DNA of 62,169 bases from a virus: IMG/VR virus record IMGVR_UViG_3300011116_000128, positions 1 to 62,169 of that record; one strand, 5' to 3'. Position numbers and translations under genes: made by a program. Each line of letters opens with the position of its first letter. Position 1 is the stretch's first letter. The notes under the pieces were generated by a model, which saw only the letters and a program-made list of their open reading frames with translations, made no database searches and had not been told where the DNA came from. This document shows, piece by piece, positions 9,900 to 32,574 of the stretch.

Positions 9900-10778
9900 T
9901 TACTCCTTAGTTTTTAAATAGTCCTGGTACTGGTTGCACCACTTACTGACAGAGCAAAAGTTAGCGCAGCGCGTCCTCTCTCCTGGCCGCACTTCGATCT
10001 CGTACTCTTTCCCGTACTCGGCCACCTTGGCCTGAGCTTCATCGGCGGTATCACAGACATTGCGTGCCTTGACCCCACCAATTTTTTTGACCGCGTAGGT
10101 CGTTTGTTTCTCCCACATCTCCTCGGAGGTACAGTGAGGTAGTTCGTCACCCGTCTCAAAATCAAACAGGGCGTTGGAGTGCATCTCAATGCGCTGCTCA
10201 ATGAACGCCTGCTGCTGCTCAAACGGCCACAGCTGGACCGGAATGACCTTGATGGGGGCATCGGGGTAGCCTTGCTTGACCGCGGCGTCACGGCGGCTCC
10301 AATCGCGGATGATGGCTACGATAGCCAAGTCGGTTACATCCTTCTGCTTGACATGGCGGACGAGCCAAGCGTAGATGTTGAGCTGCAGCTCCCAGTCAAT
10401 CTTCTCGTTCATCACCGACCAAGCGCCAACGGTCTTGTAGTCGTTGACTGTGATGGTGCCGTCTTCGTTCACGATCTGAAGGTCAATGGCTCCTGAGATG
10501 GACCAGCCGTCAACGTTGGCGTGCAGGCGCTCCTCGACCAAGTGGTGGTCATCGCGGCCATGCTCCAGCACCCCGTGGATAGCCGTGCCAAAAATGGACC
10601 AGACCATCTCGCTGACATCCTGCTCAATCTCATCGGCGTGCAGCTTGCGCAGCTGGACGATTCTGGGAGAAGAGATTAGCTCAGTGGCCGAAATGTTGGA
10701 CTTTCCCTTTGAGTAAGTCGGTCGTTTGAGGACGTTGACAAAGGTCTGCGGAAGGTTGAATTTGTTGGTGATGATCAT
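9900..10778 (-). CDS. Cas4/RecB-like PD-(D/E)XK nuclease, 292 aa
   Basis: The protein carries the RecB-nuclease pattern: GTAIHGVLEHG with H68, GAID ending at D99, DYK at 113-115 and QLNIY at 132-136 (the QxxxY motif). C271, C275 and C281 near the C-terminus, with an earlier cysteine, match the iron-sulphur cluster ligands of Cas4 and AddB-type nucleases. In phages this family usually resects double-stranded ends and pairs with an ERF, Beta or RecT annealing protein, as here. It is the first gene of the leftward operon, with AGGA before the ATG and a likely promoter region at 10799-10852. Confidence 0.8.
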   Translation of the reverse strand: MIITNKFNLPQTFVNVLKRPTYSKGKSNISATELISSPRIVQLRKLHADEIEQDVSEMVWSIFGTAIHGVLEHGRDDHHLVEERLHANVDGWSISGAIDLQIVNEDGTITVNDYKTVGAWSVMNEKIDWELQLNIYAWLVRHVKQKDVTDLAIVAIIRDWSRRDAAVKQGYPDAPIKVIPVQLWPFEQQQAFIEQRIEMHSNALFDFETGDELPHCTSEEMWEKQTTYAVKKIGGVKARNVCDTADEAQAKVAEYGKEYEIEVRPGERTRCANFCSVSKWCNQYQDYLKTKE

Positions 10779-10798
10779 GCTTTTCCTGTAGAATTAAG

Positions 10799-10852
10799 TG
10801 ACTGGGCCACACATTGTACCCACATTGTATCATGTCTTGCAAGGACTATTTT
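10799..10852 (-). promoter_or_regulatory. Promoter/operator region of the leftward recombination operon
   Basis: Two direct repeats of CACATTGTA lie eleven bases apart near 10811-10830. Read leftward they give two TACAAT -10-like hexamers. The upstream TTGCAA is 18 bases from the lower one, so it could serve as the -35. Repeated near-identical elements over a promoter suggest an operator. The rightward gene at 10855 begins just beyond. Confidence 0.45.
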
Positions 10853-10854
10853 TT

Positions 10855-11169
10855 ATGGCGACCTCAACCACCCAGCGCAGCCTCAAGTACATGAGGGACA
10901 ACGGGTTTTATGCCGAGGTAGTCGAGCGGTACAACTCTTTCACCAAGAGGAAGAACGACTTTGCGGGATTCATTGACATCCTATGCCTTGGCCAGGGCGC
11001 GGTGATCGGCGTGCAGACTACGAGCTGGGGCCACACCTCAGACCGGCTGAAGAAGATCCTTGAGCATGAAAACCTGGACATCGTGAGGGATGCCGGAATC
11101 AAGATAGAGGTCCACGGCTGGCAAAAGAAGGGAACCCGCTGGCAGGTCAAAGTAATTCATGTAGAATGA
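10855..11169 (+). CDS. Small restriction-fold nuclease-like protein, 104 aa
   Basis: The sequence has an N-terminal helix, then KNDFAGFIDILCLGQGAVIG and VQTTSW, resembling the core of PD-(D/E)XK or VRR-type nucleases and resolvases: an acidic residue before a beta hairpin, then a strand where E-x-K is normally found. Here the strand reads V-Q-T, so Q replaces the usual acid and the lysine is missing. Activity may be altered or lost. The start at 10855 has AAGGA upstream; a longer start would extend into the operator region. It stands alone, divergent from the recombination operon and followed by a terminator at 11200. Confidence 0.55.
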   Translation: MATSTTQRSLKYMRDNGFYAEVVERYNSFTKRKNDFAGFIDILCLGQGAVIGVQTTSWGHTSDRLKKILEHENLDIVRDAGIKIEVHGWQKKGTRWQVKVIHVE

Positions 11170-11227: not shown

Positions 11228-11436
11228 ACTTTAACAATGTTAAAGTCAACACGCATGGGGATTGTGACAATGCCAGCGCCGTACCTTTGAAAGTCGGTTA
11301 GCTTCAGTCCCCAGCCGTGTTGGTGAATGCGTAGGCTGATGCGCGTGGTGTTTTGGAAGCAACCGGGCGACCCTGCCTGTTTACTCGGAGCAACCAAATA
11401 AGCTGGAGTTCAGTGCCAGCCGCCAACAAAAAACGC
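11228..11436. other. Non-coding stretch between two terminators
   Basis: No convincing gene. Near its start TTTAACAATGTTAAA forms a short inverted repeat. A minus-strand frame (11197-11397) is open but would need a TTG start without a ribosome binding site and would end inside the terminator hairpin, so it is not called. Confidence 0.5.
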
Positions 11437-11475
11437 CCGACGCCTCTGCATTCTGTGTACGCGTCGGTTTTTTTT
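11437..11475 (+). terminator. Strong intrinsic terminator
   Basis: A perfect seven-base-pair stem (CCGACGC / GCGTCGG) with a 17-base loop, followed by eight Ts and preceded by an A-run, so it may also act leftward. It sits just before the small-RNA promoter and would insulate that promoter from upstream transcription. Confidence 0.7.
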
Positions 11476-11483
11476 AGTACTTC

Positions 11484-11511
11484 TTGCCGCAAGGCAAAAA
11501 TAGTGTATAGT
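11484..11511 (+). promoter_or_regulatory. Promoter of the candidate small RNA
   Basis: The -35 TTGCCG (11484-11489) and -10 TATAGT (11506-11511) are separated by 16 bases. TTGCCGCAAGGCAA over the -35 is an inverted repeat, so an operator may overlap it. The stretch AAAAATAGTGTATAGT (11496-11511) matches AAAAATGGTGTATATT at 32640-32655 in 14 of 16 positions. Confidence 0.55.
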
Positions 11512-11517
11512 TCCATT

Positions 11518-11621
11518 CGTTGTCGTTGCACACAACAATGTTTGAAGCCGTTTACTCATGCGTCTTGCCCACGAGAAATCTTGTGGGGTGCAACCAAGCC
11601 GCAGCAGTAAACGGCTTTTTT
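11518..11621 (+). ncRNA. Candidate structured small RNA, about 105 nt
   Basis: Downstream of the promoter, a perfect 11-base-pair stem (AAGCCGTTTAC at 11545-11555 with GTAAACGGCTT at 11607-11617) encloses a second eight-base-pair hairpin (CCCACGAG / CTTGTGGG at 11568-11587, AAAT loop). It ends in a run of Ts at 11616-11621. A short inverted repeat (GTTGT / ACAAC) lies near the 5' end. The outer stem plus T-run also forms a rho-independent terminator. Promoter, compact fold and terminator together suggest a stand-alone regulatory RNA. An attenuator for the downstream operon is the alternative. A 38-codon frame from 11538 overlaps it and is considered fortuitous. Confidence 0.5.
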
Positions 11622-11966
11622 CGTTTCAGCGCGGCAACCGGACTCCATCCGTAGCAAGGGGTTGCATCGCCCGCGTGGAAGAAAAGACAGAACCTCGGTG
11701 TGACCCGCACCTCCGAAGTAGCGCAAGCCAAAAGGAATAAACAAGGTTGTCAGTAATGACACATACCCTAGTACGCTGGGAGATGATCGACAGGCCGGTG
11801 AGAACTGGCCTACTCGGGATTCCAGGGGAGGGCGGATTGGCTGTCCGATAGATCGCATAAAAACCGGTCAAAGCACCTTGATAAAGAGTCGTTAGCCATC
11901 CAACACCCAACAGCCGGGGGAGGGAGGGTCAACGGGTAAGAGGGCTTAGCAATGACGATATAACAG
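11622..11966. other. Unexplained non-coding region with short inverted repeats
   Basis: No gene is supported on either strand. Small hairpins are visible: TGTCA/TGACA at 11748-11761, AGGCC/GGCCT at 11792-11811 and CGGA/TCCG at 11833-11847. A purine-rich G run (GGGGGAGGGAGGG) lies near 11924. The stretch sits between two early operons, where a replication origin or further regulatory RNA could lie; nothing here proves either. Confidence 0.4.
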
Positions 11967-13409: not shown

Positions 13410-13643
13410 ATGACTGAACCATACGGGTACTGCATGCAAGGATATAGGTACATCTTTGGCAAGGGCAAGTTTGAGCTTAGCTCTGCCGTGGGGGGTTTGT
13501 ACCCCATCTACCTTGAACCAACGCATGAAGGGCAAGAACCGTTTGCCTGCATTGACGCCGATGCAGGACTGTATTTGTTCTACCTAGAAGACATTAAAAG
13601 AACGTACTACCAACTAACCCCTGTATACAAGGAGACACTATGA
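13410..13643 (+). CDS. Hypothetical protein, 77 aa
   Basis: Tyr- and Gly-rich soluble protein (EPYGYCMQGYRYIFGKGKFEL, DAGLYLFYLEDIKRTYYQL). No recognised domain. The start follows a weak purine-rich site, and the stop overlaps the next ATG by four bases. An eight-codon minicistron at 13391 precedes it and may couple translation. Confidence 0.5.
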   Translation: MTEPYGYCMQGYRYIFGKGKFELSSAVGGLYPIYLEPTHEGQEPFACIDADAGLYLFYLEDIKRTYYQLTPVYKETL

Positions 13644-13969
13644 AAACACCTGAGGATGAAGCATTCGACGAGTTGGAGCGTAGGCGAGGCGGCTTTCAAG
13701 CCAAGCGGCAGATGGCTGCGGACAAGTTGGGCCAACTACTGGCAAACAACAACATGCCTGATACACCTACTGCTAGGGCGGTATACAGAAAGATGTTGGA
13801 GCGCGTTGAAGACGACGATGACATACAGGACTACAAGAAGCCGTGGGTAGGGCTGACTGATGATGAGATTAAAGAAATCATTGGGCCGTACGGAGCCACG
13901 CCCATCAAGGGCTATACCCGCAAACTGTTTGACCAGATTGAAGCAAAACTTAGGGAGAAGAACACATGA
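13640..13969 (+). CDS. WVGLTDEE-module protein, 109 aa
   Basis: The N-terminal part is charged and helical. From about residue 56 it contains DDDIQDYKKPWVGLTDDEI and ends with a helix finishing IEAKLREKNT. This C-terminal module recurs in at least three neighbouring genes. Its DNA at 13814-13857 is identical over 44 bases to 14264-14307. WVGLTDEEI segments are frequent in small phage proteins of unknown function. Confidence 0.6.
   Translation: MKTPEDEAFDELERRRGGFQAKRQMAADKLGQLLANNNMPDTPTARAVYRKMLERVEDDDDIQDYKKPWVGLTDDEIKEIIGPYGATPIKGYTRKLFDQIEAKLREKNT
13814..13857 (+). repeat. 44-bp direct repeat, copy 1
   Basis: Identical over 44 bases to 14264-14307. It encodes the same DDDIQDYKKPWVGLT peptide in both genes, and a diverged third copy lies near 15146-15190. 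It shows recent duplication of a coding module inside the early operon. Confidence 0.9.
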
Positions 13970-14196
13970 AATCCAAAACCCCCGAGCCGCTGTACCAACA
14001 GATTGTTCCAGTCGAAGACCGAGGCAAGGTAGCGGTAAGTAAGTACTACCGAGTCAACCAAAACATGGGTGGGCTGGGGCACAGCAGACACCCATACCTT
14101 CTTGAGTGCAACTTGCGAATCGACTTTGGCCCGGACGGTGGGATACACAACGTCGAATGGAGTAACAAAGTTTTAGAGGAGAAGAACAATGGATAA
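13966..14196 (+). CDS. Hypothetical protein, 76 aa
   Basis: Not recognised. It has a central YYRVNQNMGGLGH segment and a VLEEKNNG end that matches the terminal tails of the module proteins around it. It overlaps both neighbours (four and eight bases), so it belongs to the same translational unit. Confidence 0.5.
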   Translation: MKSKTPEPLYQQIVPVEDRGKVAVSKYYRVNQNMGGLGHSRHPYLLECNLRIDFGPDGGIHNVEWSNKVLEEKNNG

Positions 14197-14392
14197 GACA
14201 TACGAAGCAATCATTGCAGGGGCTAAGGCAGACGGGTCTTGGGATAAAAAATACCCCTACGAAGACGATGACATACAGGACTACAAGAAGCCGTGGGTAG
14301 GGCTGACGGATGAGGATTGCAAAGGCATGAATGCTGGCGACAAAGTGGTGGCAATGTGGGCTAACAGAATCCTCAAGGAGAAGAACACATGA
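14189..14392 (+). CDS. WVGLTDEE-module protein, 67 aa
   Basis: The first nine residues, MDKTYEAII, are the same as in the gene at 15307, with near-identical DNA around the ribosome binding site. The middle carries the DDDIQDYKKPWVGLTDED module shared with the gene at 13640. The end, ILKEKNT, is also shared. The gene is therefore a mosaic of two repeated modules. No catalytic residues are apparent. Confidence 0.6.
   Translation: MDKTYEAIIAGAKADGSWDKKYPYEDDDIQDYKKPWVGLTDEDCKGMNAGDKVVAMWANRILKEKNT
14264..14307 (+). repeat. 44-bp direct repeat, copy 2
   Basis: Exact copy of 13814-13857. Flanking bases diverge immediately on both sides, which marks the limits of the identical block. Confidence 0.9.
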
Positions 14393-14589
14393 TTGAAGTA
14401 GGCGACATTGTGCAAGTAGAGCCAAGTCAAAAGCTATTTGGAGGCTGCATGGTAGTGGTGACCGAGTTGAAAGATTGGGGCATTCAAGGCTATGTTCAGT
14501 CTGCTGGTGTAGAGGGGCAACAATACATCCGACTTAAAACAGAGCAGTATGAGCAAACAGGCGGGAAAGCAGTGTGGGTAATTAAATGA
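14389..14589 (+). CDS. Small beta-barrel-like protein, 66 aa
   Basis: Short beta strands predominate (VGDIVQVEP, MVVVTELKDWGIQGYV, QYIRLKTEQYE), similar in pattern to small SH3-like or KOW-like folds. No specific family is claimed. It overlaps both neighbours by four bases. Confidence 0.5.
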   Translation: MIEVGDIVQVEPSQKLFGGCMVVVTELKDWGIQGYVQSAGVEGQQYIRLKTEQYEQTGGKAVWVIK

Positions 14590-14885
14590 ACAGAAATGTA
14601 AATTCTGAAGAAGGCCTCCACTCATGCGGCTATCACGATGGAAAGCGGGCGACACAGCCAGCGCAGGAGCCTGTGGCGTGGTATGACAAACACGGAATGA
14701 TTACGCATGACCCATTTGAAGGGGTAACAGCCCTCTACACCACCCCACCACAGCGCACATGGGTAGGGCTGACGGATGAAGAAATCAGAGACTGCCTTGG
14801 CCCTGAAGCTGTTCGTATTCCTCCGGGTTGGAGCAAGTTAACCCGAGCCATTGAAGCCAAACTAAAGGAGAAGAACAATGACTAA
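14586..14885 (+). CDS. WVGLTDEE-module protein, 99 aa
   Basis: The N-terminal half contains AQEPVAWYDKHGMITH and a short ALYTTPPQRTWVGL junction; the phrase ALYTxPPQR is widespread in small phage proteins. The C-terminal module WVGLTDEEIRDCLG ends AIEAKLKEKNND, the same helix as in the neighbouring genes. Function unknown. Confidence 0.6.
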   Translation: MNRNVNSEEGLHSCGYHDGKRATQPAQEPVAWYDKHGMITHDPFEGVTALYTTPPQRTWVGLTDEEIRDCLGPEAVRIPPGWSKLTRAIEAKLKEKNND

Positions 14886-15141
14886 CAGACGCGGATTCTT
14901 TGGCTCCATGCTTGCGGCAGCGATGGCTCCTGCCATTGTGCGGGCAGAGTCCTTGATGAAAATCTATGTGCCGCCGCAGGACATCATTACCGATGTTCAG
15001 TTGGAAGAGGCGCTGTATCAAAATTTGAGCGCGGGGTACAGTCGTAACTTGGCGAAGGCAAGCATCCTCACACGGAAGCAGTTGATAGATGAATTACTCC
15101 CCAAGTTGAACAAACTTTTTGAATTGGAGTACGACAAATGA
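14878..15141 (+). CDS. Tat-signal-like small protein with capsid-like segments, 87 aa
   Basis: Residues 1-23 (TNRRGFFGSMLAAAMAPAIV) look like a Tat signal: a twin arginine followed by a hydrophobic stretch. Residues 43-62 (LEEALYQNLSAGYSRNLAKA) resemble residues 91-113 of this phage's major capsid protein (31663-32574). Residues 63-85 (ILTRKQLIDELLPKLNKLF) match capsid residues 3-24, with about 13 of 24 aligned positions identical. The order is swapped relative to the capsid. DNA of the two genes is not obviously similar, so any shared origin is old. A role in capsid assembly control, exclusion or decoy is speculation. The gene overlaps both neighbours in the operon. Confidence 0.6.
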   Translation: MTNRRGFFGSMLAAAMAPAIVRAESLMKIYVPPQDIITDVQLEEALYQNLSAGYSRNLAKASILTRKQLIDELLPKLNKLFELEYDK

Positions 15142-15314
15142 TTGAAGATGATGACAACATACAGGATTACAAAAAACCTTGGGTCGGGCTGACAGATGAG
15201 GAGGTAGAACTCTACTGGGATTGGGAAGATTTTCAAACAGGAGCGGGTCGTTCAACCATATTCAAAATGGTCAGGGACATTGAAGCTAAGTTAAGGAGAA
15301 AGAACAATGGATAA
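15138..15314 (+). CDS. WVGLTDEE-module protein, 58 aa
   Basis: Starts MIEDDDNIQDYKKPWVGL, followed by an acidic aromatic stretch (LYWDWEDFQ) and the helix DIEAKLRRKNNG. It is the diverged third copy of the 13814/14264 repeat at both DNA and protein levels. It overlaps the previous gene by four bases and the next by eight. Confidence 0.6.
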   Translation: MIEDDDNIQDYKKPWVGLTDEEVELYWDWEDFQTGAGRSTIFKMVRDIEAKLRRKNNG

Positions 15315-18350: not shown

Positions 18351-19156
18351 CCTTTGACCAATTTGCAAGAGAACATGGCCTCCTGATTGACCACATAATC
18401 GAAGGCCGCTGGGTTAGAGTCCCAACCGAAGACCATCCCCGCAAGAAGAATGGCGCCTACATCTTTAACGGGAGAAGTGGCCTCATACAAAACCATGCGG
18501 TCCACCAGCAGCCAATTCGGTATGTGTCCAGCGAACCCTTTGTGCCGGACCCGCAAGCTGCGGCCAAGCGCCAAAAGCAGAGAGACGAACAGATCAAGCG
18601 GCAAATTCAGGCTGCGAAAAAGGCGGCTTTCATCTTTAACAATGTTAGTGTTGAGTCTCACCCGTACCTGATCCGCAAGGGATTTACAGAGCCAGCTAAG
18701 GTATGGAAGGGCCTGTTGGTGGTGCCGATGCGGATAGATTCCAATCTAATTGGCCTCCAGCTAATTCAACCGGACGGGACAAAGCGGTTCCTGACGGGCC
18801 AGCGAACGAAGGGAGCCAGCCTGATCATCGACAACAAGGGGCCGGATGTGCTGGTCGAGGGGCTGGCAACGGGCCTGTCGGTGCGCCGCGCTTTGAAGCT
18901 TGCCCGTGTGCGGTACAAGATCCATATCTGCTTTTCGGCTGGGAATATGCTGGAGATAGCGCGGGGCCTGGACCATCCCATTGTGGTGGCCGACAATGAC
19001 CCGATGGGTATTGCAACAGCCAAAAAAATAGCCTCACGCTACTGGGTAGGCGAGGCCGGTGAGGATTTCAATGACTATGAGCAGAGGGTCGGCAGTCAGG
19101 CCGCTGCCGATTCCCTCGTTCCGTTTATTCAAGCATGGCATGAAAGTCCAGCATGA
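18329..19156 (+). CDS. Toprim-domain primase-like protein, 275 aa
   Basis: The C-terminal half carries a Toprim fold: VLVEGLATGLS with Glu177, then IVVADNDPMG with the DxD at 222-224. The N-terminal half lacks a clear zinc finger and contains a helical linker (RQKQRDEQIKRQIQAAKK). This is the layout of phage Toprim/primase-like proteins related to conjugative primases. Synthesis of primers for the host replisome is the likely role. A full primase active site outside Toprim was not verified. It is the last rightward early gene and converges with the minus-strand operon, overlapping it by 32 bases. Confidence 0.75.
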   Translation: MGEIENMTFDQFAREHGLLIDHIIEGRWVRVPTEDHPRKKNGAYIFNGRSGLIQNHAVHQQPIRYVSSEPFVPDPQAAAKRQKQRDEQIKRQIQAAKKAAFIFNNVSVESHPYLIRKGFTEPAKVWKGLLVVPMRIDSNLIGLQLIQPDGTKRFLTGQRTKGASLIIDNKGPDVLVEGLATGLSVRRALKLARVRYKIHICFSAGNMLEIARGLDHPIVVADNDPMGIATAKKIASRYWVGEAGEDFNDYEQRVGSQAAADSLVPFIQAWHESPA

Positions 19157-19340
19157 ATTGGACGGCCCTGTCTCCGTACAGGGTTTCAGTCTTACCATTG
19201 CCCACCCCACCATGCCCTGATAGCCAGCTAATAGTGATCCCATCTTCACCCATGTACCTGATGGTCGTGATGTCGGTTATGTAGGCGGTGTTGATGTAGC
19301 GCAGTTGCCCGTACTGATTGGTCGTTTGTATGAATTTCAT
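19125..19340 (-). CDS. Hypothetical protein, 71 aa
   Basis: A beta-rich protein (MKFIQTTNQYGQLRYINTAY, DGITISWLSGHGG) with a C-terminal helix. It is the last gene of the second leftward operon and overlaps the primase-like gene tail-to-tail. Not recognised. Confidence 0.5.
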   Translation of the reverse strand: MKFIQTTNQYGQLRYINTAYITDITTIRYMGEDGITISWLSGHGGVGNGKTETLYGDRAVQFMLDFHAMLE

Positions 19341-19510
19341 TTTTTCTCTCCAATCATGTAAGGGATCTGTCCGCTTTCGTGCGGCAGGATTAAAAATGGA
19401 AGGTCTAGGTCGGTCATTTCTTCCATGAAATGGCGCGCTGCCGTCCGTGATGTGAAGGCGCGGACAAACCGGCCTGCAAAGTAAACTTTGTAAAGCCAGC
19501 GTTGTCTCAT
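19337..19510 (-). CDS. Hypothetical protein, 57 aa
   Basis: Basic N-terminus (MRQRWLYKVYFAGRFVRAFT) followed by SRTAARHFMEEM and a short Pro-containing tail. It overlaps both neighbours by four bases. The composition is protein-like, but no family is recognised. Confidence 0.5.
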   Translation of the reverse strand: MRQRWLYKVYFAGRFVRAFTSRTAARHFMEEMTDLDLPFLILPHESGQIPYMIGEKK

Positions 19511-19641
19511 GTTTCTTCCTTCACGATGTAGGCGGCATTGCCGGTTTGCGCCATGTAGAACATGGCCTCCTTCTGCGCTTCTTTCTCGGTGGCAAACTCA
19601 CCCAGCAGGGTGTGGTTGTGGTTGTATACGCGGTACATCAT
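19507..19641 (-). CDS. Hypothetical protein, 44 aa
   Basis: A short sequence (YRVYNHNHTLLGEFATEKEA, helix, then NAAYIVKEET). Overlapping starts and stops on both sides support it. Either of two adjacent ATGs could be used. Confidence 0.45.
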   Translation of the reverse strand: MMYRVYNHNHTLLGEFATEKEAQKEAMFYMAQTGNAAYIVKEET

Positions 19642-19835
19642 TTGACCTCCCCGAACCACTCGTCCAGCACGCCAGCGTTCTGCAGGGCCACTTCAATGTT
19701 AAAGACAAAGTCATTCAGCATTTTGGGCATTTCTTTGTCCTCGTAGGCTGCTTGCAGGGATTCAACAAGGTGCAGCGCGGTCTTTGAGTCCCCGTTAAAA
19801 GAAAGGGCCTTCTCTGAAGCTTGGATCAAAATCAT
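19638..19835 (-). CDS. Hypothetical helical protein, 65 aa
   Basis: Reading from ATG 19835 gives a helical protein (ASEKALSFNGDSKTALHLVE). An upstream in-frame extension into the next gene looks non-coding (Arg- and Thr-rich shadow), so the short form is chosen. Not recognised. Confidence 0.5.
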   Translation of the reverse strand: MILIQASEKALSFNGDSKTALHLVESLQAAYEDKEMPKMLNDFVFNIEVALQNAGVLDEWFGEVK

Positions 19836-19836
19836 G

Positions 19837-20385
19837 TTAGCCACCCAGCCCTTCCGGCGCGTGGGAAATGCCAGCGTCCTCAAAAAACTTGTCGATCTCA
19901 TAATGAAAAGAGTCCTCGTCGAATTCACTTCCATTCGGCATATCAACAACGCATTCTTCGCCGTCTTTCCACCATCCCATGTAACCCATACCACCCTCGC
20001 AGTAGGCGGCTTCCACCGAAATACCGGCTTTGTGCATCGCCTCGTAGATCCCATCGGGCGGCGACCATGCGGTGTCGAACCAAACTGTGATTGAGTCGCC
20101 ATCGATCTCGTATTTGTGCACCCTCGCCTCCCATTTGGTCTTCCATTCTGCCATGCAGAAGTCGTACCAATTTTTATATCCAAATGCAGCCTCAAGCTTT
20201 TCCTCATCTTCGGTCACGGGACTACCGGCACGGGCCGGGGCGTCCAGCAGCGCCTGGGGGACAGGCACCACGGCCTGGAACCATTGCGCGTGTTCCCCGC
20301 GATCCAGTTCTTGCTTGATCTTCACCATAAAAGGGTGCGTTATGGGGGCCTTCATGCGGGCTGAGTTTGAACACCAGTTTGGCAT
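19837..20385 (-). CDS. YubB-like ferredoxin-fold protein (DUF1281-type), 182 aa
   Basis: The opening MPNWCSNSARM and the later WFDTAWSPPDGIYEAM, GYMGWWKDGEEC are hallmarks of the YubB/api92 family found on plasmids and phages, in which a ferredoxin-like domain is predicted. The family's role is unknown. It starts just after AAGGAGAAAGCT and precedes the small genes of this operon. The 20434-20455 hairpin lies upstream. Confidence 0.75.
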   Translation of the reverse strand: MPNWCSNSARMKAPITHPFMVKIKQELDRGEHAQWFQAVVPVPQALLDAPARAGSPVTEDEEKLEAAFGYKNWYDFCMAEWKTKWEARVHKYEIDGDSITVWFDTAWSPPDGIYEAMHKAGISVEAAYCEGGMGYMGWWKDGEECVVDMPNGSEFDEDSFHYEIDKFFEDAGISHAPEGLGG

Positions 20386-28835: not shown

Positions 28836-29032
28836 TTGACAAGTACCTACAACATCTGTCAAACAGGATAGATGACAAAGTATCCCAACTTCAAATAGCC
28901 CTGGCGGATGGCAACGCCAAGGATTATGCGGAGTACACAAAGATGTGCGGAGAGGTTAAAGGTCTGCTCACCGCACGTTTATTCATAACAGACCTACATG
29001 AAAGATTAAAAACCGATGACGATAATGAATGA
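28832..29032 (+). CDS. Small helical head-region protein, 66 aa
   Basis: A helical sequence (LQHLSNRIDDKVSQLQIALA, then VKGLLTARLFITDLHERLK). Homologous small proteins are often seen between portal and scaffold in phages of this type, without known role. It overlaps the portal end by four bases and the GroES-like gene by 17. Confidence 0.55.
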   Translation: MIDKYLQHLSNRIDDKVSQLQIALADGNAKDYAEYTKMCGEVKGLLTARLFITDLHERLKTDDDNE

Positions 29033-29429
29033 ATTGGACTTAGCAAAGGCTGTTGACTTGTCGCAGTTAATGCATAAAGAGCCAGAGCAAAAAGCCAAGC
29101 AGCTACCAAAGCCTGTTGGCTACCGCATCTTGTGTGCGATTCCAGAAGTGGAAGAAACCATTGAAGGCTCAAGCCTCATTAAGTCATCAGAAATGATGCG
29201 CACTGAGGAACTGTTGACTACGGTGTTATTCGTAGTAGACATGGGGCCTGATTGTTACGCGGACACCAGTCGATTCCCGACGGGACCCTACTGTCAACGC
29301 GGAGACTTTGTTTTGGTTCGGCCACATGCTGGGACAAGACTAGTCATTCACGGCAAAGAGTTTCGCATCATCAACGACGATTCAGTCGAAGGTGTAGTCG
29401 AAGATCCACGCGGCATCCGACGCAAATAA
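29016..29429 (+). CDS. GroES-like co-chaperonin, about 137 aa
   Basis: After a short helical N-terminus, the segment PKPVGYRILCAIPEVEETIE, the mid part VDMGPDCYADTSRFPTGPYC, GDFVLVRPHAGTRLVIHGK and EFRIINDDSVEGVVED follow the order and spacing of the Cpn10/GroES beta-barrel: a paired strand, a variable mobile-loop region, then the GD-x-V and G-x-E/F-x-I strands. In T4 a phage GroES analogue (gp31) is needed to fold the capsid protein; the same role is inferred here from its place between portal and scaffold. ATG 29025 is an alternative start three codons in. Confidence 0.6.
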   Translation: MTIMNELDLAKAVDLSQLMHKEPEQKAKQLPKPVGYRILCAIPEVEETIEGSSLIKSSEMMRTEELLTTVLFVVDMGPDCYADTSRFPTGPYCQRGDFVLVRPHAGTRLVIHGKEFRIINDDSVEGVVEDPRGIRRK

Positions 29430-29438
29430 GGAACACAA

Positions 29439-30350
29439 ATGTCAAACGAATTCAAATTCCCTGACGAACAGGAAGATGAAAAACTTGACGATGACATCAT
29501 CGTTGAAGTTGAAGATAACACTCCCCCAGAAGACCGTAATAAAACTCCATTGCCTGAAAAAGTTCGGGAAGAGCTTTATAACGACGAGCTGGAGGATTAC
29601 TCTACCAAGGTCAAGAAAAAACTTCTTCAGATGAAGAAGCTGGCGCATGACGAGCGTAGAGAAAAAGATGCGGCTTTGCGTGAGCAAAATGAAGCCATTG
29701 CATTCGCCAAGAAACTGATGGAAGAGAATAAAAAGCTCAAAGCCAATCTGTCCAACAGCGAAAACAATGTCCTTTTTTCTGTTACCAAAACAGTAGAAAT
29801 GGAATTGGATGCGGCCAAAAAAGCCTATCGTGAAGCCTATGATTCAGGCGATACCGACAAGGTAATGGAAGCCCAGGAGCGTCTTACCCAGGCAACATTA
29901 AAGGTTGATAAGGTTAAGAGTTTCAAGCCAGCTCCACCGCCACAGGAAGAAACTGTGGTACAAACCCCCCAGCCCCAAGTCCAACGGCCTCCTGTAGACC
30001 CAACTGCAGAAGCTTGGCAACAAGAAAACCCTTGGTTTGGGCAAGATAAGGAAATGACTGCTTTGGCTCTAGGTGTTCACGACGCCATGCTGAGCGAAGG
30101 AGTTAGGCCCTCATCACAGGAGTATTACTCCCGGCTTAACGCCACTATCCGAAAACGTTTCCCAGAGAAATTTGAGGAAGCTGAGGAACAAGAAGATCGG
30201 CCCAGCCGAAAAAGCTCGGTGGTTGCACCAGCTACACGGACTACATCCGCAAAACGAGTAAAGCTTACCGTTGGTGAGTTGAACTTGGCAAAGAAATTTA
30301 AACTTACACCGGAGCAATTTGCTGCGGAAAAAATCAAATTAGGAGCCTAA
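29439..30350 (+). CDS. Scaffolding protein, 303 aa
   Basis: Highly charged and helical: an acidic N-terminus, coiled-coil central region (LREQNEAIAFAKKLMEENKK), a Pro/Gln-rich hinge near residues 165-185 (PPPQEETVVQTPQPQVQRPP) and a basic C-terminus (KRVKLTVGELNLAKKF) of the kind that binds coat protein. The position before the capsid genes fits. No protease motif is apparent. Confidence 0.7.
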   Translation: MSNEFKFPDEQEDEKLDDDIIVEVEDNTPPEDRNKTPLPEKVREELYNDELEDYSTKVKKKLLQMKKLAHDERREKDAALREQNEAIAFAKKLMEENKKLKANLSNSENNVLFSVTKTVEMELDAAKKAYREAYDSGDTDKVMEAQERLTQATLKVDKVKSFKPAPPPQEETVVQTPQPQVQRPPVDPTAEAWQQENPWFGQDKEMTALALGVHDAMLSEGVRPSSQEYYSRLNATIRKRFPEKFEEAEEQEDRPSRKSSVVAPATRTTSAKRVKLTVGELNLAKKFKLTPEQFAAEKIKLGA

Positions 30351-31662: not shown

Positions 31663-32574
31663 ATGGCTATTTCACGTGCCCAGCTGCTTAAAGAGCTGCT
31701 TCCAGGGCTTAACGCCTTGTTTGGTCTGCAGTACAAGACCTACGATCAAGAACACGAAGAGATCTACGAAACCGAGACCTCTGAGCGTTCTTTTGAAGAG
31801 GAAACTAAACTGTCTGGCTTCAGTGCTGCACCTGTCAAAAACGAGGGTTCCGCCCTTGCTTATGACAATGCTCAAGAGGCATGGACTGCTCGTTACAACC
31901 ACGAAACCATTGCTTTGGGCTTCTCCCTGACGGAAGAGGCAATCGAAGACAACCTGTATGACAGCTTGTCCGCTCGTTACACCAAAGGTCTGGCCCGTGC
32001 TATGGCGTACACCAAGCAGGTTAAAGCTGCTGCTGTTATCAACAACGGTTTTGCATCCAACTATGTTGGCGGCGACGGCGTATCGTTGTTCAGCACTGCC
32101 CATCCATTGACCAATGGTGGAACCAACAGCAATCGTCCTACCACTGCTGCCGATTTGAATGAGACTTCCCTGGAAGCCGCAGTCATTCAGATCGCTGCTT
32201 GGACTGATGAGCGCGGTTTGCTGATTGCAGCCAAGCCTAAGAAGCTGATTGTTCCTCCTGCTCTGATGTTCGTTGCTACTCGTCTGTTGGAAACCAGCCT
32301 GCGCGTTGGTACTACCGACAACGATATCAATGCGTTGAAGAACAACGGTTCAATCCCTGGCGGCTACGCCGTTAACCACTACTTGACCGACACTAACGGC
32401 TGGTACTTGACCACTGACGTTCCAAACGGCATGAAGCACTTTGTTCGTACCCCTCTTTCGAATGGTATGGACGGTGACTTTGACACTGGTAACGTCCGTT
32501 ACAAGTCCCGTGAGCGTTATTCGTTCGGCTGGTCTGACCCACTGGGCATGTTCGGTTCTCCCGGCTCGTCCTAA
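31663..32574 (+). CDS. Major capsid protein (Mu gpT / HK97-fold type), 303 aa
   Basis: Contains the gpT-like pattern: RSFEEETKLSGFSAAPVKNE, ALAYDNAQEAWTARYNHETI, GFSLTEEAIEDNLYDSLSAR, LFSTAHPL, a central domain and RERYSFGWSDPLGMFGS near the C-terminus. These phages usually assemble it with a separate scaffold, as here. The N-terminal arm (ISRAQLLKELLPGLNALFGL) and residues 91-113 reappear, in swapped order, in the small early protein at 14878. A strong terminator follows. Confidence 0.88.
   Translation: MAISRAQLLKELLPGLNALFGLQYKTYDQEHEEIYETETSERSFEEETKLSGFSAAPVKNEGSALAYDNAQEAWTARYNHETIALGFSLTEEAIEDNLYDSLSARYTKGLARAMAYTKQVKAAAVINNGFASNYVGGDGVSLFSTAHPLTNGGTNSNRPTTAADLNETSLEAAVIQIAAWTDERGLLIAAKPKKLIVPPALMFVATRLLETSLRVGTTDNDINALKNNGSIPGGYAVNHYLTDTNGWYLTTDVPNGMKHFVRTPLSNGMDGDFDTGNVRYKSRERYSFGWSDPLGMFGSPGSS

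Follow-up and report, generated by a model that had tools for sequence, protein, structure and literature searches.

Why should a phage carry, far from its head genes, a small gene whose product resembles pieces of its own capsid protein? We followed this question in one virus record of IMG/VR, which was analysed over its whole length of 62,169 bases (the window). The earlier note had described the gene as a short capsid mimic in the early operon, and this description is now backed by alignment statistics, by relatives in other viruses and by independent recurrences of the same capsid piece.

The small gene and its surroundings

The gene at 14878-15141 belongs to a tightly packed set of small genes located before a ParB-like gene. 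We call this cluster early because of its position in the genome, so the timing of its expression is presumed. The 87-residue product starts with MTNRRGFFGSMLAAAMAPAIVRAES... (the leader), continues with a segment up to residue 67 and then runs into the tail LTRKQLIDELLPKLNKLFELEYDK. Its AF2 model was poor (pLDDT 57) and unusable. The following features are relevant in this region:

14861-14877, plus strand: ribosome-binding site of the AAGGAGAAGAACA type within the coding 3' end of the preceding gene, at a repeated operon junction
14878-15141, plus strand: gene of the chimeric early protein, 87 residues (leader, spine-like segment and N-arm-like tail), with the ATG at 14878 and the stop codon ending at 15141
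14878-14985, plus strand: Tat-like leader module RRGFF...APAIVRAESLMKIYVPPQ, residues 1-36, common to proteins of other viruses with different tails; no capsid match
14986-15078, plus strand: residues 37-67, resembling capsid residues 89-119 at the amino end of the spine helix (BLASTP and shuffles); also found in the relative L003, and as capsid residues 75-118 in L017
15067-15132, plus strand: tail, residues 64-85, resembling capsid N-arm residues 3-24 (BLASTP, shuffles and profiles)
15138-15314, plus strand: next ORF with the KKPWVGLTDEE module, ATGA overlap with the gene 14878-15141

The stretch 13640-15314 is an array of small genes with shuffled modules. A 73-nt repeat coding for KKPWVGLTDEE occurs in three copies, and a 37-nt junction repeat, which encodes a C-terminal KEKN together with the ribosome-binding site of the next gene, occurs in four. 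The relatives of the gene have a similar type of neighbourhood, in which the order of the modules differs. Such an operon of repeated modules accounts for the origin of chimeras of this kind, but not for the retention of two particular capsid pieces.

Likeness to the capsid protein

The head genes are found at 24.9-32.6 kb and comprise terminase, portal, a GroES-like gene, a candidate scaffold and the capsid gene. The GroES-like co-chaperonin gene (29016-29429; phrog_3188, E 4.3e-9) is situated between the portal and capsid genes. The features needed for the comparison are:

29439-30350, plus strand: candidate scaffolding protein, so assigned from its place between portal and capsid and its charged helical composition; it belongs to a PHROG of unknown function
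31663-32574, plus strand: major capsid protein, HK97 fold, Mu gpT-like, 303 residues (PHROG, Pfam, relatives and AF2 model)
31669-31734, plus strand: N-arm of the capsid, residues 3-24, either the source of the tail or its partner (BLASTP and AF2 model)
31927-32019, plus strand: capsid residues 89-119, amino end of the spine helix (BLASTP and AF2 model)

The capsid protein matches the major head protein family phrog_371 at 1.8e-21 and the Pfam Mu-like gpT family (PF10124) at 1.5e-8, and its relatives in isolated phages, with 56-71% identity, are mostly annotated as capsid or head protein. Its AF2 model was fair (pLDDT 66, pTM 0.64), and the best PDB matches are HK97-type shells. This model has two N-terminal helices within residues 5-19, and a spine helix that starts with residues 91-95 and has its body in residues 100-129.

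In a six-frame BLASTP search of the window with the small protein, the best non-self match of two segments was the capsid. Residues 64-85 share 13 of 22 residues with capsid residues 3-24 (E 2e-4), and residues 37-67 share 12 of 31 with capsid residues 89-119 (E 0.01). The earlier note had proposed a comparison with shuffled sequences, and both segments scored above all 5000 shuffles: the tail reached 65 versus a maximum of 44, the middle segment 59 versus a maximum of 46. For tail and middle alike the capsid ranked first of 449 stop-to-stop frames. A chance resemblance is thus ruled out by the shuffles and the rank. The likeness of residues 63-85 to the capsid N-arm, which had been noticed by eye, is real and covers residues 64-85. 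The second likeness had been placed at residues 43-62 and capsid residues 91-113; this match is also real, and the order of the two pieces is indeed reversed relative to the capsid, but it extends further than was thought and has four residues in common with the tail match. The leader, on the other hand, has no likeness to the capsid (score 24, reached by 1773 of 5000 shuffles). Moreover, the 87-residue protein lacks a full-length HK97 fold with A domain, P domain and E-loop; only the pieces of 22 and 31 residues match.

Leader and relatives

By eye, the leader fits the Tat pattern, with RR-x-F-F, a hydrophobic stretch and VRA-E, in agreement with the signal-like N-terminus of the earlier note. 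It turned out to be a module of its own, which is found with other tails elsewhere. In IMG/VR, 23 loci encode a relative of the 87-residue protein. Two of them are identical to the window gene (L001, L002), seven are distinct full-length relatives with the same tail (L003-L009), and the others have only the leader in common with it and carry different tails. The leader is therefore a promiscuous module: in L019 (6011-6352) its partner is a phage tail collar domain (Pfam E 1.2e-17), in L025 (275-541) a DUF7483 piece (E 2.1e-6). At the DNA level the leader pattern was found in 22 viral stretches, and a scan of the GTDB species genomes gave no match; a second scan of bacterial genomes gave 75 pattern matches, of which none was confirmed, and none was found in phage records. 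One 91-kb virus record (G026, L080) has two adjoining genes with Tat-like leaders and different tails (10456-10947 and 11240-11671).

The leader raises the alternative that it is a working Tat signal and that the tail acts in the periplasm or the membrane, in which case the likeness to the capsid would reflect ancestry only. Besides the twin arginines, the hydrophobic core and VRA-E, the retention of AESLMK at the protein level with free codons (the E codon is GAG in 12 and GAA in 11 of 23 cases) speaks for such a secreted protein. Several leader relatives (L020, L026, L022, L011 and L013) come near the Pfam TAT model below its threshold, with L020 at 20.2 bits versus a cut-off of 22.7. However, the window protein itself gave no match to Pfam TAT_signal at E<=1, and the N-arm proteins G031, G051 and L210 described below have no leader. 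We consider secretion as the main function quite improbable. An internal start at the invariant M27 found no support, since the codon of the would-be ribosome site is the freely varying E codon just mentioned.

With respect to the tails, a close variant of the tail pattern is confined to the window's family (six of six), where the tail is C-terminal and follows a variable linker. The middle segment of L003 resembles the capsid as well, whereas L004-L009 keep the N-arm tail but have an unrelated linker in place of the spine piece. The protein L017 has a different variant of the leader, joined to capsid residues 75-118 (E 5.4e-8 and 48% identity in the comparison within its own record). Its tail matches capsid places only, in eight of eight phage records, of which the weakest (E 0.4) is not significant; two of the eight have no annotation beyond hypothetical protein, but their position is that of the capsid match.

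The idea that, as a rule, the tails of leader proteins derive from structural proteins of the same virus found no support. Among 11 records examined in all, the eight other-tail records that are whole or nearly whole (G010, G011, G013, G017, G018, G020, G021 and G026) gave no significant non-self match. The best non-self match of the L018 tail in its own record was a 41-residue frame (E 0.024), that of the L039 tail a second leader gene (E 0.35). Likewise, the L010 tail was rejected as another capsid N-terminus, its matches being DNA polymerase genes only (E 1). In G020 (L069-L071), the tail of L020 aligns best, itself excepted, with the ORF 19044-20111 of the same record (RQMHLTREMIRYGVLR / ERMGLVREMVRYGSMK; E 0.37, with 15 of 5000 shuffles as good), which from its sequence we take to be a capsid-like protein; for the L020 tail nothing was found in phage records.

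Age and selection

In the tail, the codons of the residues shared with the window's own capsid agree at the level of chance, with the same codon in 4 of 13 positions (4.8 expected from codon use); in the middle segment, the codon is the same in 5 of 12 positions. The capsid pieces are therefore old, and a recent gene conversion from the own capsid was rejected. Over 28 pairs, leader, middle (the linker) and tail had mean pS/pN values of 0.43/0.08, 0.58/0.37 and 0.52/0.18, respectively. Judged by these values, the tail is evidently under constraint at the protein level, i.e. purifying selection, in the seven distinct relatives.

All 18 rows of alignment A5 agree in the R, P and F of the motif. 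Gly15, which is invariant in 32 of 32 capsids, is replaced in all nine mimic rows by K, E, A or N; for L210 it must be mentioned that the search pattern excluded glycine at this position, the other mimics having been found without that exclusion. The tail gave no sign of tracking its own capsid, as far as the window, the one record with both genes, allows a comparison at one informative position: at position 23 its tail has E, the family consensus, and its own capsid has Q. The 26 leader-family records besides the window are in many cases short contigs, and a full-length capsid relative is found only in G018, whose leader protein has an unrelated tail.

Recurrence on other small ORFs

With the family profile A1, the capsid N-arm was matched in 40 of 40 capsid-bearing records, and in two of these (G031 and G051) a small non-capsid ORF was matched as well. 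The G031 protein has 78 residues, begins with MPISRQQLVNELLPALDKLFG and carries the N-arm piece N-terminally; it is preceded by a gene that we take to be a VRR-NUC-like nuclease. The G051 protein has 119 residues, ends with YRGQLVEELLPKLNALFGIEDKR and carries the piece C-terminally after a PE-rich linker. A pattern scan added L210, with an N-terminal piece, and the further G051-type copies L206 and L207 (L208 is G051 itself). None of the G031, G051 and L210 proteins has a leader. Two other pattern matches, L211 and L212, were dropped as chance; judging from their sequences, they are presumably a DNA polymerase-like and an integrase-like protein. In L209 (8657-8770, minus strand), a 38-codon fragment of the capsid N-arm without ATG is situated among non-structural genes; it may be the 5' end of a capsid gene, inserted recently or already in decay.

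As a control, 32 records were searched with a profile built from 29 capsids with no mimic included. It hit seven small non-capsid ORFs, all seven at the capsid N-arm (positions 1-29; 1-40 in G069), with an E value of 7.8e-4 for the window tail; the remaining matches were capsids, among them a truncated one at the end of a contig (G061). Among the records chosen for the capsid alone, 2 of 27 have an N-arm small ORF (G031 and G051). In the complete phages searched, a second N-arm match was absent in eight of eight, two of which (W05 and W08) gave no match at all. Among 50,697 phage records the N-arm matched capsids only (nine of nine). Furthermore, when 20 capsid pieces were slid over 7785 frames, in records mostly picked for carrying such genes, small ORFs were matched only by the pieces 1-28 and 71-112, the other matches being the true capsid of G018. 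One of four G051-type relatives, L253 (3001-3252), has lost most of the linker and the N-arm through a deletion that keeps the reading frame, so this protein can dispense with the piece.

These observations bear on the question whether the capsid pieces have any capsid-related role. They could be mere leftovers of an early operon that recombines short modules. The modular make-up of the operon with its two sets of repeats would fit such a by-product of shuffling, as would the leader joined elsewhere to a tail-collar domain or a DUF7483 piece, the L209 fragment without ATG and the loss of the N-arm in L253. However, purifying selection on the tail argues against it, and so do the saturated synonymous codons with a preserved protein pattern and the restriction of the recurrence to two capsid regions. 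Hence, we regard this explanation as unlikely.

The recurrence on different carriers would also fit an arms race, in which the protein is a decoy for a coat-sensing host defence (CapRel- or Lit-like), made early to silence or occupy the sensor. Coat proteins are known as defence triggers (PMC9712102), and early expression would be appropriate. Nevertheless, a copy that keeps the trigger is more likely to fire the sensor than to mask it, and the PADLOC defence models gave no match at E<=1 for the window protein, the G051 type or the G031 type. A decoy therefore appears very improbable to us.

Possible role in head assembly

Starting from what is established, namely the chimera, the significance of its likeness to the capsid, its conservation and the recurrence of the N-arm on unrelated small early ORFs, we tentatively favour the view that the gene is an old, selected chimera whose capsid-derived part may well work as a docking peptide in head assembly, with both the binding and its outcome being inferred. 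A Tat-like N-terminal module would have been joined to two capsid pieces, one from the N-arm helix and one from the amino end of the spine helix, and the capsid-derived part would imitate the surfaces that hold the coat protein during head assembly. As a docking peptide, it might compete for, sequester or recruit scaffold or coat. Assembly could thereby be delayed or tuned, a related phage in the same cell could be disturbed, or the protein could be recruited into heads. The functions suggested in the earlier note, namely poisoning capsid assembly, blocking superinfecting relatives or intercepting satellites, are likewise conceivable.

This view is favoured because the two capsid elements correspond to the surfaces contacted by the scaffold in phage SPP1. 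According to the SPP1 study (PMC6813328), two helices of the coat protein, the N-terminal one and the spine helix, are touched by the scaffold at their amino ends; mutations at these contacts impair assembly, and certain ones at either place give scaffold-free coat polymers. The authors describe the N-terminal scaffold contact as a common one among phages, and that at the spine helix as less conserved. For phage 80alpha, another report (PMC5644958) places the C-terminal helix of the scaffold on the N-arm helix of the coat. In the AF2 model of the present capsid, the stretches echoed by the small protein fall on the N-terminal helices and on the spine helix at its amino end, the surfaces being named from SPP1 and not from this phage. 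The argument from two surfaces is limited to the window and L003, because L004-L009 lack the spine piece.

The main difficulty for a docking peptide is that a working Tat leader would export the tail to the periplasm, whereas heads are assembled elsewhere. The leaderless proteins of G031, G051 and L210 are free of this export problem. Further points against docking are that the tail does not track its own capsid at the one informative position, that the N-arm was nearly all lost in L253, that the spine-helix contact is the less conserved one and that the scaffold gene itself is only a candidate.

The position of the N-arm piece deserves attention with regard to another alternative, since it is terminal in all types, C-terminal in the window family and the G051 type and N-terminal in G031 and L210. 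It could be a targeting tag that brings small early proteins into the assembling head for ejection into the next host, comparable to the C-terminal cargo-loading peptides of encapsulins. The latter are short, terminal and act on HK97-fold shells (PMC8346489). A mere tag has no need of the spine-helix piece, and the leader would compete with it by directing the protein to the membrane. Furthermore, encapsulin peptides are not known to be copies of the shell's own N-arm. On balance, we find such a tag decidedly unlikely.

Returning to the docking peptide, one may generalise that phages of this capsid group repeatedly reuse the scaffold-docking elements of the coat as a portable peptide on small early proteins, and that they control their own or a competitor's head assembly by imitating the coat and not the scaffold. 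In this general form the proposal is conceivable, but somewhat unlikely. If docking is true, a 25-residue peptide with a clear binding prediction would be at hand as a simple probe of early HK97-type head assembly in a large and little-studied group of phages from aquatic habitats, and it could point the way to assembly inhibitors of a new class. Whatever the function, it is unusual that early genes reuse two capsid pieces so selectively and repeatedly.

Comparison with known systems

In the literature consulted, mainly outside subscription journals, we recognised no case of a phage gene composed of parts of the phage's own coat protein, and nothing recognisable as this kind of gene among reports on Tat-signal phage proteins and modular early leaders. 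The Mu gpT-like HK97-fold capsids (phrog_371, PF10124) are the closest by sequence, since residues 3-24 and 89-119 of the own capsid are echoed. In contrast to them, the small protein has these two pieces only, reversed and behind a leader, and cannot form the fold.

Interference of satellites and prophages with assembly is known, as is capsid sensing by host defences. A small satellite protein that redirects capsid size by acting at the coat/scaffold interface is Sid of P4. CpmB of SaPI1 (PMC5644958) is likewise a small protein that acts on the coat/scaffold interface of the phage in capsid-size redirection. The likeness is one of description, and CpmB is on the scaffold side and satellite-encoded, whereas here the coat side is imitated by a phage-encoded protein. 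The tail assembly blocker Tab of a Pseudomonas prophage, as described in PMC10884400, is also a phage-encoded protein that stops virion assembly; again likened by description, it targets tail assembly and is expressed from the prophage. The cargo-loading peptides of encapsulins, which bind an HK97-fold shell (PMC8346489), are, like the N-arm pieces, short, terminal and carried by unrelated proteins. If the docking peptide proves true, the virus would regulate or weaponise the assembly of its own shell with a copied shell fragment, which would be the mirror image of the competing scaffold of satellites.
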